In this document: piece after piece, positions 2,931-62,759 of the stretch | How the letters are laid out: each line of letters opens with the position of its first letter | Numbering within the stretch: the stretch's first letter is position 1 | Source of the DNA: Prevotella sp. | Lineage (GTDB): Bacteria; Bacteroidota; Bacteroidia; Bacteroidales; Bacteroidaceae | Assembly: GCA_017449495.1 (NCBI GenBank) | Contig: JAFTFO010000018.1 | Location: forward strand, 35,324-99,323 | DNA length: 64,000 nt | Direction: 5' to 3' | Translations under genes and position numbers: made by a program | Notes under the pieces: model-generated | Databases searched by the model: none | What the model was told of the DNA's origin: nothing | What the model saw: only the letters and a program-made list of their open reading frames with translations

Positions 2931-5888
2931 ATGAGGCGGTTTAACTATCGTCTTCTATCTTCCTCTTTCTTCCTCTATCTCCTTCTACTTCCCTTCTCCC
3001 TCCCCACTACCGCCAACGTCCTGACGGAACGTTATAACCTGACGACGCTCGACCTGAGTAATGGCCTTCCCCATAATCACGTCAGCGATATCTTCATGGA
3101 CTCCAACGGGTTCCTCTGGATCTCTACCTATGGTGGCGGATTGGTGCGTTATGACGGCTATGGGGTCATGGAACCCCAGCTCGACTTGAACAGCAAGTCT
3201 TGCCGGAGTATCACCGAGGACCGTTTCAAAAGGCTCTGGGTGGCTTTCGACGAGGGTATCAATATCATCGACCTGAAGACGATGAAGTCGGTGGTGCCCA
3301 CCCATCAGGAACTGCAAAAGGTGTTGGTTCTGCCGGCCATCAGGTGCTATCACGACGCCATAGGGCGCATTTGGGTGGTCACGGACCGTCAGGTGTCGCT
3401 GGTGACGTTCGATGCCCAGGGAGAGGTCGACCAGATCTATCATTATCCTCATCAGTGGAGGATGCTCGACATCGCCATCTGTGACGTCGAGGAGAACGGT
3501 AAGCCGTGGATAGGCATCGACGGCGGTCTCTACCGGTTGGTGGTAAAAGGAGGGAAACTGGTGCGTGAGGAGATCTCCGCTCTATTGAAACCCTTGCAGG
3601 ATCATTATATTACCGACATCCTGAAGCGTAATAACGAGATATGGATCACGACGAATCTTGGGCTGTTCCGCTACGATCCGTATCAGCAGAAGTTAACTGA
3701 GTATCACCAGTCCAGCGCACCCGGTGCATTGTCTCATGTCTTCCTCTCCAGTCTGGCTGTCACGTCCGACAACCGCTTGTTGGTCGGCTCATTAGGGGGT
3801 GTCAATGTCTATGATGATCAGACAGACAGTTTCACTGCATGGACTACGGAGAGTCCCGTCCCACTAAAGAGCGACTTTGTGGATTGTATCCGTGTGTATC
3901 AAGGGCATATCTGGATTGGCACCGAGTCGGGTGGCATCGCCTGTCTGGCTCCCCAGCGACTGCTGCTGCGCAACTCCGTTCATACCAGTAATCCTCATTC
4001 TCTCTCGCCCAACCCCGTGAATGCCATGTATGTGGAGGCCGACGGGCGACTGTGGGTAGGAACGGTGGAAGGTGGTCTGAACCTTCGTGAGCAGGGAACA
4101 AGTGATTTCATCCATTATACAACGGCCAATTCCGGCTTGTCGCATAACAGCGTATCGGCCCTTGCTGCCGATCACCACGGCCGGCTGTGGATCGGCACCT
4201 GGGGTGGTGGTGTTTGTCTGACCGACAGGCAAGGGCCGCATCAGATTACACGTCTGTCACTCCCCGATGAGTATCGTGGTCTGACGACCTTTGTAGGTGC
4301 ACTGGCCGTCGACACCATCAACGACGGCTTGTGGATAGGCAGCAATGCCGGTCTGTTTTACTATGATTTCAAGATGCAGCGTATCGAGGAACCCTTTGAA
4401 GGCTGTCGTAGCATCACGGGCAGCATAGGAGCCATCGTTGACCGTGAGGGCGCCCTCTGGATGGGGTGCATGCAAGGTGTGATCAGGGTGGAGCTTCAGA
4501 CAGGGCGCCAGGGGCGCAGACCTTTTGAACATGAGCTGATCTCGCATAAGTTGGATGAACACGACTCCCGCATCGTCGACAAGATATCCTCTTTCTGTCA
4601 GGCTCGCGACGGGACCCTCTGGCTGGGCAGTAATGGCTACGGCCTCTACCGGTTAGTGAAGGGCAGTGACAACTCCCTGGGACATTTCGAAGCCTTGACG
4701 ACAGATGATGGCTTGGCCTTTGGTGGCGTCAAGGGTATCGTGGAGGATGCCAACGGCCGTCTGTGGGTGACCACCCAGAATGGCTTGTCGGTCTATGATC
4801 CGAAGACTCACACTTTTTCAAACTATTTCGAGAACGAAGGACTGGTCAGCCAGCATTTCTATTGGAACTCAGCCATGAGCGATGCCTCTGGCGTCATCTA
4901 TCTCGGCAGCGAAGGTGGTTTGATAGAGGTCTTAGGTGAGAACACGGCGGCCAGACCTTATGGAAAGCTTGTCTTCACACAACTGACGGTGGACAACCAG
5001 GATGTGATGGCCGGCAGTGAATATCTGTCTGACGATATCTCCATTGCCTCTTCCATCCAGTTGCGTGAAGGGAACCGCTCTTTCTCGATAGCCTTCTCTG
5101 CCTTAGACTATGGCAACGAGGAACAGGCGATGTTCAGTTACAGGATGAAGGGACTTGACGATGAGTGGACACCCCTCAAGCTGGGGGAGCACTCCGTGCG
5201 TTATAACGCCCTGCCGGCAGGGCACTATGTCTTTGAGGTGAGATACGTATCGTCATTGTCTGCAGAACAGTCGGATGTGGCCTCTATCGACGTCATTGTG
5301 AAGCCTGCTTTCTGGAAAAGCTGGTGGTTCCGGTTGCTCCTGAGCATCGTCTTTGTCATTCTGCTTATTTATATATATAATAGGTGGGTGGCCCGGCTCA
5401 AGCGCATAGAGGCAGAACAGTTGCTCAACCCCATCCGCCGTGCCCTCGAGGAGTCAGACGATCCCGCTCATCTGCAGACGCGCATCCAGAACATCCTCGA
5501 CAACCAGCAGCGCTATAAGATCAGTGTGACGAAGAGTCTGGAGGCTGACAAGGAGGAGGTCCTCAAGACCGCCAAACCGTTCATGGAACGGGTGATGGCT
5601 ATCATGGAGGCTAACTACATGAACTCCGAGTTCGGCGTGCAGGAGTTCTGCGATGCCCTCGGCATGAGTCGCAGCGTGGCCAGCAAGCATCTCAATGCAG
5701 AGGTGGGCGTGCCTGCCGGACAGTTCATCAAGAACTACCGCCTGAACATGGCCAAGGAACTGCTGTCTGCCAAGACTGGCAACCGCAACGTCACCGAGAT
5801 TGCCTACCGTGTGGGCTTCAACGATCCTAAGTACTTCACCCGCTGCTTCACGAAGATGTTCGGTGTCAGCCCCAGCCACTCAGTTTAA
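2931..5888 (+). CDS. Membrane-bound propeller/AraC regulator lacking histidine-kinase and receiver domains
   Basis: Counting from the ATG at 2931 the product has 985 residues. It has a signal peptide (RRFNYRLLSSSFFLYLLLL), two-component-regulator propeller repeats at about 35-690 (many copies of a motif like GRLWVGTVEGGL), a Y_Y_Y sensor domain near 720-790, one membrane span near 795-820 (WWFRLLLSIVFVILLIYIY), a linker of about 60 residues, then an AraC-type DNA-binding domain (EIAYRVGFNDPKYFTRCFTK) to the end. Classical hybrid two-component regulators carry HisKA, HATPase and receiver domains between membrane span and HTH; none is visible here. It is next to the GH43 locus and is probably its glycan-sensing activator. 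An upstream ATG at 2886 is possible but spoils the signal peptide. Confidence 0.87.
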   Translation: MRRFNYRLLSSSFFLYLLLLPFSLPTTANVLTERYNLTTLDLSNGLPHNHVSDIFMDSNGFLWISTYGGGLVRYDGYGVMEPQLDLNSKSCRSITEDRFKRLWVAFDEGINIIDLKTMKSVVPTHQELQKVLVLPAIRCYHDAIGRIWVVTDRQVSLVTFDAQGEVDQIYHYPHQWRMLDIAICDVEENGKPWIGIDGGLYRLVVKGGKLVREEISALLKPLQDHYITDILKRNNEIWITTNLGLFRYDPYQQKLTEYHQSSAPGALSHVFLSSLAVTSDNRLLVGSLGGVNVYDDQTDSFTAWTTESPVPLKSDFVDCIRVYQGHIWIGTESGGIACLAPQRLLLRNSVHTSNPHSLSPNPVNAMYVEADGRLWVGTVEGGLNLREQGTSDFIHYTTANSGLSHNSVSALAADHHGRLWIGTWGGGVCLTDRQGPHQITRLSLPDEYRGLTTFVGALAVDTINDGLWIGSNAGLFYYDFKMQRIEEPFEGCRSITGSIGAIVDREGALWMGCMQGVIRVELQTGRQGRRPFEHELISHKLDEHDSRIVDKISSFCQARDGTLWLGSNGYGLYRLVKGSDNSLGHFEALTTDDGLAFGGVKGIVEDANGRLWVTTQNGLSVYDPKTHTFSNYFENEGLVSQHFYWNSAMSDASGVIYLGSEGGLIEVLGENTAARPYGKLVFTQLTVDNQDVMAGSEYLSDDISIASSIQLREGNRSFSIAFSALDYGNEEQAMFSYRMKGLDDEWTPLKLGEHSVRYNALPAGHYVFEVRYVSSLSAEQSDVASIDVIVKPAFWKSWWFRLLLSIVFVILLIYIYNRWVARLKRIEAEQLLNPIRRALEESDDPAHLQTRIQNILDNQQRYKISVTKSLEADKEEVLKTAKPFMERVMAIMEANYMNSEFGVQEFCDALGMSRSVASKHLNAEVGVPAGQFIKNYRLNMAKELLSAKTGNRNVTEIAYRVGFNDPKYFTRCFTKMFGVSPSHSV
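2951..3000. repeat. pyrimidine decamer tract inside the signal-peptide coding region
   Basis: Five in-phase 10-nt units (TCTTCTATCT, TCCTCTTTCT, TCCTCTATCT, CCTTCTACTT, CCCTTCTCCC) encode the hydrophobic part of the signal peptide. The first three are the reverse complement of the upstream decamer array with one mismatch in 30, so the mRNA can fold into a long hairpin with the start codon in its loop. Confidence 0.85.
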
Positions 5889-5938
5889 TCGTTTCGATTG
5901 TCGCTCTTTCTCCTTACTTGTAAAGCTTTTATAATTAT

Positions 5939-6047
5939 TTATCGCGCCCATCGCGCCCCTTTTGGGGTTAAGTCTCTGGTTATCAGTAAGATGTCGGGGG
6001 CGCGATTGGTGAATTATCGCGCCCCTATCGCGCCCCTATCGCGCCCC
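5939..6047. repeat. GC-rich hairpin and 11-nt tandem repeat after the regulator gene
   Basis: GGGGCGCGAT (5997-6006) and ATCGCGCCCC (6016-6025) form a 10-bp stem with a 9-nt loop. The right arm belongs to a three-copy 11-nt tandem repeat TATCGCGCCCC (6015-6047), and another ATCGCGCCCC lies exactly 66 bp upstream of the first copy. It could end transcription of the regulator, but no T-tract follows. Confidence 0.75.
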
Positions 6048-6067
6048 TTGATAATTTTAACGTTAGC

Positions 6068-6353
6068 GTTTGAGTATACGCGAACAACCGTTTGAGTATA
6101 CGCAAACGGTCATTTGAGCCAAGGCAAACGGTAGTAAGGATAGGGTAAAACCCCTGTGATGATGCCTGTTACCCCCTATAAACTGCCATCAGTATCCCTG
6201 TAAACAGGCATCAGCAACAACGTTAGGAGGTATCAATAACATCGTTAGGAGGTATCAATAACATCGTTAGGAGGTATCTGCAACAACAATAACGGACTTC
6301 TGCAACAACGTAGGTAGCCATCATCAACAGCGTAAGAATCCTTGATTTATGTC
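6068..6353. repeat. 22-nt-period array A, 13 contiguous units
   Basis: The 286 bp divide into exactly 13 units of 22 nt. Units 1-3 fit (G/A)TTTGA-N7-AAC-N4 or close to it; unit 4 starts GTAAGGATAGGG; units 8-10 share GTTAGGAGGTATC; later units are more diverged but keep the phase, most beginning GT. The period is not a multiple of 3, so this is not coding. The first four units resemble array B at 20.9 kb. It lies in the 636-bp gap between the regulator and susC. Confidence 0.85.
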
Positions 6354-6412
6354 AACGGAAGGGGTTAAAAGGGGACGAAACGCACAAAAATTACCGTTTT
6401 GTGTATAAATTT

Positions 6413-6447
6413 CGTTTTGTCCACCTATTAAATCGTTTTGTCCACCT
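6413..6447. promoter_or_regulatory. direct repeat upstream of arabinan susC, probable activator site
   Basis: CGTTTTGTCCACCT occurs twice (6413-6426 and 6434-6447), 21 bp apart, and a partial copy CGTTTTGTGTA starts at 6395. The second copy ends 19 bp before the -7 box, a good position for an activator such as the AraC-type domain of the adjacent regulator (inference). Confidence 0.65.
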
Positions 6448-6466
6448 TTTCTTTTTAAATAATAAG

Positions 6467-6474
6467 TAACTTTG
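6467..6474 (+). promoter_or_regulatory. -7 box of the arabinan susC
   Basis: TAACTTTG matches TAnnTTTG, 50 bp upstream of the susC ATG. A good -33 TTTG at 19-21 bp is absent, as expected for an activator-dependent promoter. Confidence 0.65.
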
Positions 6475-6524
6475 CGAAAAATTTCACAAATAAACTAATT
6501 TTATTAAACTTAAAAAGACTAACA

Positions 6525-20866: not shown

Positions 20867-20920
20867 AAGAAAAAAATCGAGAAGACACACTACAATGACA
20901 TTAAAATTTTAAGCGTTAGC

Positions 20921-20986
20921 GTTTGCCTATAGCCGAACGGTTGTTTGAGTACAGCCAAACGGTAGAAAGGATAGGGTAAAACCCCA
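20921..20986. repeat. 22-nt-period array B, three clear units
   Basis: Three contiguous 22-nt units begin GTTTGCCTATAGCC, GTTTGAGTACAGCC and GAAAGGATAGGG. They match units of array A, including the lead-in CGTTAGCGTTTG and the shared core ATAGGGTAAAACCCC. Further 22-nt steps to the right are weak. The array is in the 359-bp gap between the protease and the ORF6N gene. Confidence 0.8.
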
Positions 20987-21012: not shown

Positions 21013-21050
21013 GTGCAGGATAGTAGCTCGATTTTGAGTCTATCCTGCAC
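21013..21050. repeat. 11-bp perfect hairpin
   Basis: GTGCAGGATAG and CTATCCTGCAC are perfect complements separated by 16 nt. No T-tract follows; role unknown. Confidence 0.75.
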
Positions 21051-21123
21051 CGTACTTTGTCTGATTATCAACAACTTACACGCCTCAGTAGCTCCAGTAG
21101 CTCGATAATTTTTTTAGTATACA

Positions 21124-33961: not shown

Positions 33962-34037
33962 TCTTTTAGGCACTTTCCGTTGCGATTATCCATCCGCAGG
34001 CATGCTGAAAACGATACTTTCATCCTGATGCGCTTTC

Positions 34038-34103
34038 GTTTGACCTTGGTCAAACAATCGTTTGACGGCCGTCAAACAAACGTTTGACCCGTGTCAAACG
34101 ATC
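34038..34103. repeat. 22-nt-period array C, three palindromic units
   Basis: Three contiguous 22-nt units, each GTTTGAC-N4-GTCAAAC plus a 4-nt spacer, with centres CTTG, GGCC and CCGT and spacers AATC, AAAC, GATC. Unit 2 is a perfect 18-bp palindrome. It lies upstream of purL in the 759-bp gap before the lipoprotein gene. Confidence 0.92.
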
Positions 34104-34265
34104 GACACCTTAGCCCAGAGTGCGCATCAGCCCATCGTAAAGGCACACTTTCCACAGGCCGTCCGTCGCGATTGGCGACTGCTTTTGGGGCTGGAATCCG
34201 CCCGTTTTGTAAGAGAAACGGAAAATATTCGGCGGAATAACATTATTTAACTCTTTCTCGTGCAG

Positions 34266-57728: not shown

Positions 57729-58048
57729 AGCAGGCGGGTATTTATGTCAATGACATCTTTTGTGGCACTCTTACAGAAGACGAGGAGGGCTTCCACTTTA
57801 TCTATGATAAGACGTATCTTGGTCATCAAAATGCAGTTCCTGTAAGTCCGACGATGCCCCTGACTGATGAGCAGTATGATAAGGAGATGATGTTTCCAGT
57901 CTTCGACGGTCTCATTCCTGAGGGCTGGCTGCTGGATATAGCAGCCTCGTCTTGGAAAATAGATCCACGAGACAGAATGTCGCTCTTGATGGCATGCTGC
58001 AAAGACTGCATCGGCAATATTAGCGTTAAACCATTGGACTATGAGTAA
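57725..58048 (+). CDS. hipS: HipS-like protein: stand-alone HipA N-terminal domain
   Basis: A 107-residue protein equal to the N-subdomain of HipA (QAGIYVNDIFCGTLTEDEEG, PTMPLTDEQYDKEMMFPVFD, GLIPEGWLLDIAA). In classical hipBA this domain is fused to the kinase; here it is a separate gene overlapping its neighbours on both sides (4 bp and 8 bp). In the tripartite HipBST modules this small protein, not HipB, is the antitoxin for the kinase (published for E. coli); the same is inferred here. Confidence 0.87.
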   Translation: MKQAGIYVNDIFCGTLTEDEEGFHFIYDKTYLGHQNAVPVSPTMPLTDEQYDKEMMFPVFDGLIPEGWLLDIAASSWKIDPRDRMSLLMACCKDCIGNISVKPLDYE

Positions 58049-58985
58049 GTGTTTGTATTGTTATCAGGAACTGGAAGAAGGCCAAGAGGACTTTCACCCC
58101 GCTTGCGCCCGAAAGATGTTTGGCAGCGAAACGGCACCTATTCTTCCTTATACGAGGGGCAATATGTCTGAACTCGCCCGCCAAGTAATCCGAACCAGTG
58201 CGTCTGTAACTGGTGTTCAGGCCAAGATGTCGCTTGATGTGAACCGTGGCGGAAAGAATGAGCCAGCCAAATTCACCATTGTGGGCCTCTGGGGCAAGTA
58301 TATCTTCAAACCGCAAAGCAGTAAGTATCCTTGTCTGCCAGAATTGGAAGACTTGACGATGAAGATGGCAGAGGCTGCTCGTATCCGAACAGCCCGTCAT
58401 TCGCTCATCCGACTTGCTGATGGTGAGCTGGGCTATCTGACTCTCAGGATGGATCGAGGTCCGAAAGGTGAAAAGATCTCCATGTTGGATATGTGTCAAC
58501 TAACCAATCGCCTTACAGAGCACAAATACTATGGCACCTATCAGCAACTGGCAGAAACGATAAAGAAGTACTCGTCGGCTCCCATGCTGGATGTTCAGCG
58601 TTTTTGGGAGGTTGTCTTGTTCTCATGGATAACAGGTAACTCTGACATGCATTGCAAGAACTTTTCCCTTGTTGATTCCGGGAATGGGGAGTACCTCCTG
58701 GCTCCCGCCTATGACTTGCTGGCTGTACTGCTTGCCGACCCAGAGGATACAGAGGAGATGGCTATGAGTTTTACAGTAGGAGACGCTAAAAACGGCTTCG
58801 ACCGCAATACCTTCATGACGGCCTTTACCCAAAGCGGTATCCCCTTTGCTGTAGCTGACAAAATGATAGAACGGCTGAAGAGCTATTACCCTGCCTGGAA
58901 AGAACTCATCTCTCAATCTTTCCTTCCAGAAAAGATGAAAGGCGATTATTGCCTTTTACTTGGCAAGCGCATTTCCCGTCTCTGA
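58041..58985 (+). CDS. hipT: HipT-like Ser/Thr kinase toxin (HipA C-terminal kinase)
   Basis: A 314-residue HipA-fold kinase without the N-subdomain. A small Cys/His cluster opens it (Cys4, Cys7, His19, Cys22: possible zinc site). The glycine-rich loop is TSASVTGVQAKMSL (52-65), with possible autophosphorylation Ser/Thr; then the ATP lysine Lys90 (YIFKPQ), catalytic GNSDMHCKN (Asp202, Asn207) and metal-binding Asp225 (AYDLL). All kinase residues look intact. HipA-type kinases phosphorylate aminoacyl-tRNA synthetases and cause growth arrest; the target here is unknown. Confidence 0.9.
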   Translation: MSKCLYCYQELEEGQEDFHPACARKMFGSETAPILPYTRGNMSELARQVIRTSASVTGVQAKMSLDVNRGGKNEPAKFTIVGLWGKYIFKPQSSKYPCLPELEDLTMKMAEAARIRTARHSLIRLADGELGYLTLRMDRGPKGEKISMLDMCQLTNRLTEHKYYGTYQQLAETIKKYSSAPMLDVQRFWEVVLFSWITGNSDMHCKNFSLVDSGNGEYLLAPAYDLLAVLLADPEDTEEMAMSFTVGDAKNGFDRNTFMTAFTQSGIPFAVADKMIERLKSYYPAWKELISQSFLPEKMKGDYCLLLGKRISRL

Positions 58986-59025: not shown

Positions 59026-59178
59026 TAGGACTTTAGTTAGGCTAAACTCTCCGTTATGATAGTGTTGAGTCTGAGAAAGGTTAGGGCTTTCTCCGAAATT
59101 CTCGAGAGAATTTTGGACTTTACCCTAACTAAAGTCCGACTTTACCCTATCTAAACTCCGACTTTACTGCCTTCAAAC
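59026..59178. repeat. 22-nt-period array D
   Basis: Three contiguous 22-nt units (59113-59178) share GACTTTACCCTA or GACTTTACTGCC. Read on the minus strand they begin GTTTGA, GTTTAG and CTTTAG and contain ATAGGGTAAA or GTTAGGGTAAA, as in arrays A and B. A related unit lies at 59026-59047. The 341-bp gap between hipT and the ATPase gene holds nothing else recognised. Confidence 0.78.
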
Positions 59179-59326
59179 TGCTTGCAACCTGAACTTAGGT
59201 GTCAGTTCTGGTGCGCGTTGGGTGCAAGATCTATTTTATATAACTATCAGATAATCAGCATTAGGTGTCGGTAGTGTAAGAAGTGTAAGTTCTGATAATG
59301 TTCTTATACTAGTCTTGCTGTTACTA

Positions 59327-61670: not shown

Positions 61671-62759
61671 TTACTTCTGGATGTACTTCTTACCGTTCTT
61701 GATAACGAAGCCCTTGTAAGAAGCGCTTACCTTCTGACCAGCGAGGTTGTAGATAACGTTGTCAGCCTTCTTAGCTGTCTTCACGTTCTGGATAGCGGTT
61801 GCACCCTCATGAATAACCTGTACCTTCTTAACAATGGTGGTACCAACAATACGACCAGGCTGGAACAGCACGTGGCAGCCCTCAGCGTCATCTGCCCAAT
61901 CGGGGAATTCAACCTCAATCTCCTGGAAGTCATCACTTGCAGTTACAGGAACAACGTACTGCTTATTGACACCCCAGCTACCCATGTTGATCTGGAGGAA
62001 ACCGTCAGCAGGAATCTTGGCTGTAACAACAACCTTGTAAGTCTCGTCAATTGCAAGGTTGAAGTCCTGAAGAACTGACATCTGAGGCATCCATTCCTTA
62101 CCCTCGCCCATATCGGTAGAATGAGTGATGGCAATACCGTCTGCTACCATTTCGTAAGTAGCATCAGATTCACCCTCCTGGAAGAAGCCCAGATCATATT
62201 CTGCAACACCTGTCCAGTCTCTTTCAGCAATAACCTCTTCACCAGCAGGCTCGGGGGCTTCACCACTCATGTTATAAACCTGTACCTTCTTAATGATGGT
62301 GGTACCAACAATACGACCTGGCTGGAACAGCACGTGGCAGCCCTCGGCGTCATCTGCCCAATCGGGGAATTCAACCTCAATCTCTTGGAAGTCATCACCT
62401 GCAGTTACAGGAACAACGTACTGCTTATTGACACCCCAGCTACCCATGTTGATCTGGAGGAAACCGTCAGCAGGAATCTTGGCTGTAACAACAACCTTGT
62501 AAGTCTCGTCAATTGCAAGGTTGAAGTCCTGAAGAACAGACATCTGAGGCATCCATTCTTTACCCTCACCCATATCGGTAGAATGGGTAATGGCAATACC
62601 ATCTGCTACCATTTCATAAGTAGCATCAGATTCGCCCTCCTGGAAGAAGCCCAGATCATACTCTGTTGCGCCTGTCCAGTCTCTCTCAGCAACCAAAGTC
62701 TGAGCATTTGCACCAACGGCCATCAAAGCCATTGCAACTAAAGTAAATAACTTTTTCAT
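61671..62759 (-). CDS. Secreted protein with two almost identical CBM-like domains and a C-terminal tail
   Basis: A 362-residue protein from the ATG at 62759. Signal peptide ending AVGANAQ, then two tandem domains of about 140 residues that differ at only a few positions (ERDWTG.., YDLGFFQEGESDATYEMVAD, through VLFQPGRIVGTT). Their beta-rich pattern, ending in an I-K-K-V-Q-V strand, is like CBM4/9-type galactose-binding folds (inference). The end (IYNLAGQKV, GFVIKNGKKYIQK) is the tail also found on the GH43 and C10 proteins. The gene has its own promoter and terminator. Ligand unknown. Confidence 0.82.
   Translation of the reverse strand: MKKLFTLVAMALMAVGANAQTLVAERDWTGATEYDLGFFQEGESDATYEMVADGIAITHSTDMGEGKEWMPQMSVLQDFNLAIDETYKVVVTAKIPADGFLQINMGSWGVNKQYVVPVTAGDDFQEIEVEFPDWADDAEGCHVLFQPGRIVGTTIIKKVQVYNMSGEAPEPAGEEVIAERDWTGVAEYDLGFFQEGESDATYEMVADGIAITHSTDMGEGKEWMPQMSVLQDFNLAIDETYKVVVTAKIPADGFLQINMGSWGVNKQYVVPVTASDDFQEIEVEFPDWADDAEGCHVLFQPGRIVGTTIVKKVQVIHEGATAIQNVKTAKKADNVIYNLAGQKVSASYKGFVIKNGKKYIQK
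61815..62697. repeat. recent tandem duplication within the gene, period 462 bp
   Basis: Copies at about 61815-62235 and 62277-62697 are nearly identical at DNA level, including third codon positions. Confidence 0.9.

Follow-up and report, generated by a model that had tools for sequence, protein, structure and literature searches.

Arrays with a 22-base step adjoin, and are probably bound by, an overlooked HU-like protein family in Prevotella

In Prevotella, tandem DNA arrays with a step of 22 bases adjoin genes of an overlooked family of HU-like proteins and are probably bound by these proteins. The family is HU-HIG (PF18291), in which HU is fused to a winged helix-turn-helix (wHTH), an Ig or a Gly-rich motif. 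What is new here is the association of phased arrays with HU-HIG genes; neither a DNA target of HU-HIG proteins nor a phased cognate array was found in the literature searched, which took in few subscription papers. Judging from gene linkage and spacing, we consider it likely that the arrays are multi-site targets of HU-HIG proteins in double-stranded DNA, and array sequences seem to differ from one HU-HIG protein to another.

Four loci in the window (the whole stretch of DNA analysed, 64,000 nt) carry such arrays, and they fall into three unit families: type A at 6068 and 20921, type B at 34038 and type C at 59116 (Table 1). A sequence-only reading had assigned all four loci one period and a shared consensus, with a second type of unit in the same phase. 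The 22-nt period stands, but A, B and C differ and the single consensus fails. The layout of 6068-6353 as thirteen contiguous units of exactly 22 nt was reproduced, with the final units weak. The same reading was right to place all four arrays between genes, as no ORF of at least 80 aa overlaps any of them, and to set them apart from the identical repeats and unique spacers of CRISPR, as the units are contiguous and diverging and spacers are absent. Tandem Repeats Finder reported period 22 in the window at 6069-6132, 6206-6287, 34036-34104 and 59116-59167. When the window was matched against itself (at least 38/66, lags 12-40), lag 22 topped all lags with three clusters; lag 33 gave two, lags 14, 20, 30, 32, 39 and 40 gave one each, and the remainder gave none. 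The copy at 20921-20986, an 82% match to the first array (L027), is alone too short to pass this self-match.

Table 1. Arrays of the window and a related gene elsewhere in the same genome
Feature	Position	Strand	Description
Type A leader	6053..6067	+	A/T run, then CGTTAGC; profile of 13 own-genome copies
Type A core units	6068..6133	+	three 22-nt units, imperfect dyads such as GTTTGAGTATACGCAAAC plus 4 nt
Fourth type A unit	6134..6155	+	GTAAGGATAGGGTAAAACCCCT, in phase
Further type A units	6156..6353	+	nine 22-nt units, GTTAACAGGCATCAGCAACAAC-like, last ones weak
Leader of second type A copy	20900..20920	+	
Second type A copy	20921..20986	+	two core units and a ATAGGGTAAA unit
Type B array	34038..34103	no strand	three palindromic 22-nt units, GTTTGA-N6-TCAAAC plus 4 nt
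Type C array	59116..59181	-	three 22-nt units
HU-HIG gene	G000:C44:26356-26902		two upstream units share the outer arms of the second type C unit

The type A copies inspected follow one plan, with all parts in phase: a leader precedes the core units, of which there are usually three, and a ATAGGGTAAA unit then comes fourth, before C-ended units. In a profile of 13 copies from the genome of the window (G000; 2.24 Mb, 68% complete), most leader positions from -13 to -1 are invariant, with conservation setting in near -25 to -29. In all, 123 type A elements were assembled from the collected loci after elements identical in their first 66 nt had been dropped. Three core units are present in 89 of them, four in 26, two in 4, and five and six in one each; the remaining two did not parse. 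CCC holds the 22-nt phase across three slots past the last core unit (118 elements), and the central unit positions keep their letters though most do not pair (249 distinct units).

Type A is dispersed through its own genome and conserved across species. A BLAST search with 6040-6160 found 19 places in the genome at E<=3.2e-12, including 20921, and the exact pattern GTTTGA-N7-CAAAC-N4-GTTTGA occurs 15 times over the two strands taken together, with none for the reversed control. Across the genus the two-unit pattern matches 36 of 398 genomes, and the reversed pattern matches none. A scan of named genomes yielded at least 112 type A stretches; the 80 listed belong to Prevotella, Prevotellaceae or Xylanibacter, together with one 'Bacteroidia' and one 'Bacteroidales' record. 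ORFs of at least 100 aa overlap two of the 123 elements. Type A is thus an intergenic, multi-copy tandem minisatellite with a leader, which is the make-up of BrickBuilt or MITE-like elements. Away from HU-HIG genes it lies in 28 convergent, 6 divergent and 53 co-directional regions, against 15, 29 and 70 among background regions (Fisher p 3e-5, with counts resting on crudely called ORFs).

When the nearest proteins of the 123 elements were clustered, one HU-HIG family was outstanding; 16 elements, among them the own-genome copy L010, have it on their left. Three array-linked proteins score 35.9, 38.8 and 45.6 bits against the PF18291 cut-off of 26.2. An NCBIfam search gave one weak HU match, below cut-off, and comparison with solved structures by sequence gave nothing convincing (best E 0.26). 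The predicted structure of the type A partner, of moderate confidence, is HU-like at residues 36-124 and wHTH-like at 140-206, and the protein looks like an HU domain, with the HU fold in the model, followed by an apparent winged helix-turn-helix.

The linkage was also seen when loci were taken by protein, namely the 30 best homologues of a query, A1, made of eight proteins that all come from array neighbours. With the array threshold at 33/66 or more at lag 22, an array lies within 500 nt after the stop codon in 27 of the 29 assessable loci, and in the 600 nt upstream in just 2 of 30. The best lag is 22 in 25 of the 28 loci assessed. Core-to-core gaps are exactly 22 nt in 53 of 54 cases and 44 nt once, with no other value below 60, which agrees with the proposal, made from the window, that spacing is constrained. 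Arrays that adjoin HU-HIG genes and keep their spacing would likewise suit the cooperative DNA-binding protein site that had been put forward as a candidate.

By hand count, an A1 homologue at E<=1e-30 is present in 27 of 36 array-positive genomes versus 72 of 362 others, and one of at least 340 bits in 20 array-positive genomes versus three others; these figures include shared descent and are partly circular, because A1 was built from array-adjacent proteins. The three array-negative genomes with a homologue of at least 340 bits (G022, G095 and G284) do have diverged arrays. Nine of the 36 array-positive genomes are without a homologue at E<=1e-30, and eight chosen genomes gave none at E<=1e-5. 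Unlike proteins tend to go with unlike units, for instance TTTTGCGTATGCCCGCAAGG-like ones in G107, G378 and G105. A unit-aligned Mantel test of unit against protein similarity gave r 0.42 (7 of 5000 permutations), in a version made after the results of two cruder tests, neither of them significant (124/2000 and 143/2000), were known.

Type B is a palindromic family with GTTTGACCNNGGTCAAAC-like units. Related places occur on contigs C5, C6, C18 and C37 of the same genome, and on C37 no stretch rose above 36/66 in the self-match. None of the seven PF18291 matches found in this 68% complete genome is on a contig with a type B copy. Type C, read on the plus strand, has the form GACTTT-N9-AAA..., preceded by ATTCTCGAGAGAAT, and its second unit is GACTTT-N9-AAACTCC. 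The outer arms of this second unit comprise 13 letters, all of which recur in two units that precede the HU-HIG gene on C44. These were the only matches to the arms among 308,272 22-mers from 16 own-genome loci, mostly chosen around HU-HIG genes and arrays. The local type C pattern had no match in 399 loci. A HipA_C-domain gene (58041-58982) adjoins array C.

Of the seven PF18291 matches of the genome, five are as long as HU-HIG proteins and two have the length of canonical HU. Within about 600 nt of each of the five long matches there is a lag-22 stretch scoring 38/66 or more, the one on C14 being the least convincing; of the short matches, C42 has such a stretch and C35 does not. The HU-HIG gene C19:258 has TTCAGTGAA units upstream, and the phased 22-nt array of these units was found at six further loci of the genome, with none for the reversed control. 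Three of the six copies occupy regions between divergently oriented genes, in one case before a gene that is, by recognition, presumably alaS. Another of the six precedes the canonical-length HU gene of C42.

To place these genes in a wider setting, 60 HU-HIG loci from 15 genomes were assembled, picked near the top of the PF18291 match list and not randomly. They contain 30 lag-22 clusters, 18 in the 28.5 kb immediately before the HU-HIG domain and 12 in the other 410 kb, an upstream excess with a Poisson probability of 3e-18 against the rate elsewhere. The next lags were 44, a harmonic, with 20 clusters, 21 with 14 and 14 with 13. Counted by lag, upstream stretches occur at lag 22 in 18 loci, at 23 in 7, at 21 in 4 and at 16 in 4, one of the lag-21 cases (L295) being a 7-nt simple repeat; control windows 1.5-2.1 kb away gave 0 to 1 stretch per lag. 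In about half of the 60 loci an upstream array is absent at the thresholds used. Judged by eye, the upstream arrays differ between most HU-HIG paralogues, and many of the units are short palindromes. In several loci a TAnnTTTG box, which we take to be the Bacteroidetes -7 element, was seen by eye directly before or after the array.

Among 13 further loci, namely 11 lower matches of G003 and two G016 loci already examined, nine have an upstream array at lag 21-23, compared with 0 of 21 control windows. Eight of the 11 previously unexamined loci, all in G003, are positive, but G003 was the richest genome of the first set (12 of 14) and its further loci are not independent, because some of the genes are close paralogues with near-identical arrays. 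The loci L405 in G016 and L410 in G003 have a related unit, AAAAAGGTAGACC, in common. Two unlike paralogues in G017 have one array in common, which could reflect a heterodimer or co-regulation. In G046, from another family of the order, lag 22 gave no upstream stretch at any of eight HU-HIG loci, and lag 23 or 44 gave one at three of them.

An array lies nearby in 23 of the 60 HU-HIG loci versus 2 of 20 canonical-length HU loci, where it was sought within about 1 kb and where one of the two is the C42 array (Fisher p 0.024). In the 20 canonical-length loci lag 24 gave seven clusters and lag 22 six. Random loci contained nine lag-22 clusters in 168 kb, with at most three at any other lag. Arrays of this step are therefore common in the genus beyond HU-HIG genes, and part of the linkage could be due to chance; the position-specific enrichment upstream of HU-HIG genes argues against this. 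Array families vary from genome to genome, and the PF18291 matches, canonical HU included, number from 1 to 30 per genome among the matches listed. In G016, six of nine random loci (L349-L353, L357) contain dispersed 22-nt arrays whose units are TGCGTCAAAT-like. This array family is beside none of the three HU-HIG genes of G016, a genome with no A1 homologue. Such units do occur within about 1 kb of two canonical-length HU genes there, perhaps by chance given the density of these arrays.

Our preferred reading is that HU-HIG proteins bind the arrays as double-stranded DNA. Each 22-bp unit would then be an imperfect dyad readable by one protein dimer and, because 22 bp is about two helical turns, neighbouring dimers could all occupy the same face of the helix. 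An array upstream of the protein's own gene would lend itself to autoregulation; the type A array sits just after the stop codon. Copies elsewhere may act as addresses, some of them upstream of other genes, as in the TTCAGTGAA family. The preference of type A for gene ends would be expected of an architectural or silencing site.

An unlikely alternative is that the array is a MITE-like or otherwise mobile repeat that spreads non-autonomously, with the HU-HIG neighbour as its source locus or a coincidence. Copies have position-specific units in common, so that whole arrays appear to have been copied; the flanks of L023 and L024 look alike beyond the array; and the arrays are intergenic, as is a similar published element, BrickBuilt. 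By eye, however, the own-genome copies show neither a fixed right end nor terminal inverted repeats, and inspection of the 14 neighbour clusters listed, two families of which were searched in Pfam, revealed no recognisable transposase. Mobility would also leave unexplained why HU-HIG genes that differ have different arrays in one and the same upstream position. That arrays precede HU-HIG genes themselves, and other genes too, one of them a canonical-length HU gene, weighs as well against the rather improbable idea that the arrays are selfish or invading repeats recognised and silenced by HU-HIG proteins, and the type A pattern had no match in viral contigs. A conflict role for HU-HIG expansions was reportedly proposed by Burroughs et al. 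in 2017, and the uneven PF18291 counts and the differing array families among genomes would fit it.

It is similarly doubtful that the arrays are chromosome-partition or membrane-anchoring sites, like ParR-parC or Noc sites, although a nucleoid or segregation site, another candidate of the sequence-only reading, may still be considered. Their tandem register, their dispersal and the preference of type A for gene ends are compatible with such a role, as is the family of about 480 aa with a hydrophobic stretch to the right of eight elements. Each genome nevertheless has several different arrays, three TTCAGTGAA arrays lie between divergent genes, and a look through the 14 neighbour clusters listed revealed no recognisable motor gene. 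An RNA element, either a structured untranslated region or a terminator, was among the candidates of the sequence-only reading and found no support; we regard it as very improbable. The units are able to form short hairpins, and in several of the copies listed the fourth unit looks by eye like a compensated hairpin. Yet type A shows no orientation bias relative to genes (24 vs 29), the central pairs are mostly mismatched, and 5880-6524 has no Rfam match at E<=1. In the 249 distinct units G-U cells (161) exceed C-A cells (103), but 122 of the G-U cells fall at one pair. The RNA reading was dropped because this excess concerns mainly one stem position and the central GG is kept without pairing.

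As targets of HU-HIG proteins, the arrays can be set beside several known systems. The linked genes match PF18291, and the predicted fold is HU-like, as in the HU/IHF family. HU, whose Pfam domain we take to be PF00216, is generally regarded as weakly sequence-specific; unlike it, the HU-HIG proteins described here have candidate phased cognate arrays. In iterons, ParR-parC and TubR-tubC, protein dimers bind in register to tandem repeats beside their own, autoregulated gene. The present arrays are likewise tandem repeats in register that adjoin the gene of a putative binding protein, but they are chromosomal, come in several different kinds per genome and have no recognised replication initiator or motor gene nearby. 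REP/BIME elements are dispersed palindromic units that prefer gene ends; type A is also dispersed and favours gene ends, but differs in its strict 22-nt tandem register, and no RAYT transposase was recognised among the neighbours listed.

Going by the accessible part of PMC4596501, the closest published element is BrickBuilt of Porphyromonas gingivalis, which has 23-nt units, a leader and 19 intergenic copies in one strain. It has short IS5-like inverted repeats, its end repeats were the ground for classing it as MITE-like, and 22-nt repeats had been described earlier in strain W83 (PMC4596501). BrickBuilt_14 is listed in Table 1 of that paper beside PGN_0872, a 'DNA-binding protein (PF00216)'; a link to HU-HIG was not found in the part available (PMC4596501). 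So far as this source describes it, BrickBuilt resembles the present arrays in being dispersed and intergenic, with a leader and exact tandem units, and its 23-nt period falls within the range of 21-23 seen here; its unit sequence is different, and its IS5-like inverted repeats were not seen here by eye. More tentatively, and perhaps a little against the odds, Prevotella and possibly other Bacteroidales may have many parallel HU-HIG/array pairs, in which every HU paralogue, alone or together with a second one, recognises a tandem sequence of its own phased at 21-23 bp, controls its gene through that sequence and organises or regulates private chromosomal sites, with BrickBuilt as an unrecognised case. 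If so, these pairs would form a set of addressable nucleoid proteins. For many PF18291 proteins a candidate cognate array makes the DNA target a matter for a binding test. The pairing may also account for phased repeats that are widespread in these bacteria, perhaps even for a published element that had been classed as mobile.

Several smaller features were noted around the arrays. Repeats of CGCGCCCC (5941-6048) adjoin the 6068 array on its left and occur left of copy L010 as well. A GTGCAGGATAG...CTATCCTGCAC hairpin follows the 20921 array on its right, at about 21016-21056, with a similar one beside copy L021. The window has a 10-nt tandem repeat of AGATAGAGGA type at 2779-2908, and the motif recurs behind the type A arrays in L010, L015, L020 and L021. 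A 462-bp tandem duplication with 95% matches lies within an ORF at 61815-62692. The family of about 480 aa (L066:2255-3700 and seven others), right neighbour of eight type A elements, has a conserved C-terminus (KVTRKSPHNN...), and neither Pfam nor NCBIfam gave a match for the one member searched. The gene right of the own-genome HU-HIG/array locus (L389; G000:C23:80921-82288) resembles by eye the right neighbours in L114, L118 and L160. A 32-bp palindrome, GGTNACATGGTNACAGCTGTNACCATGTNACC, occurs within 500 nt downstream of 34 of the 123 type A elements and upstream of none. It lies mostly 110-180 nt past the start of the array (loci L059-L169), and its arms tend to vary together (C, T, once A).
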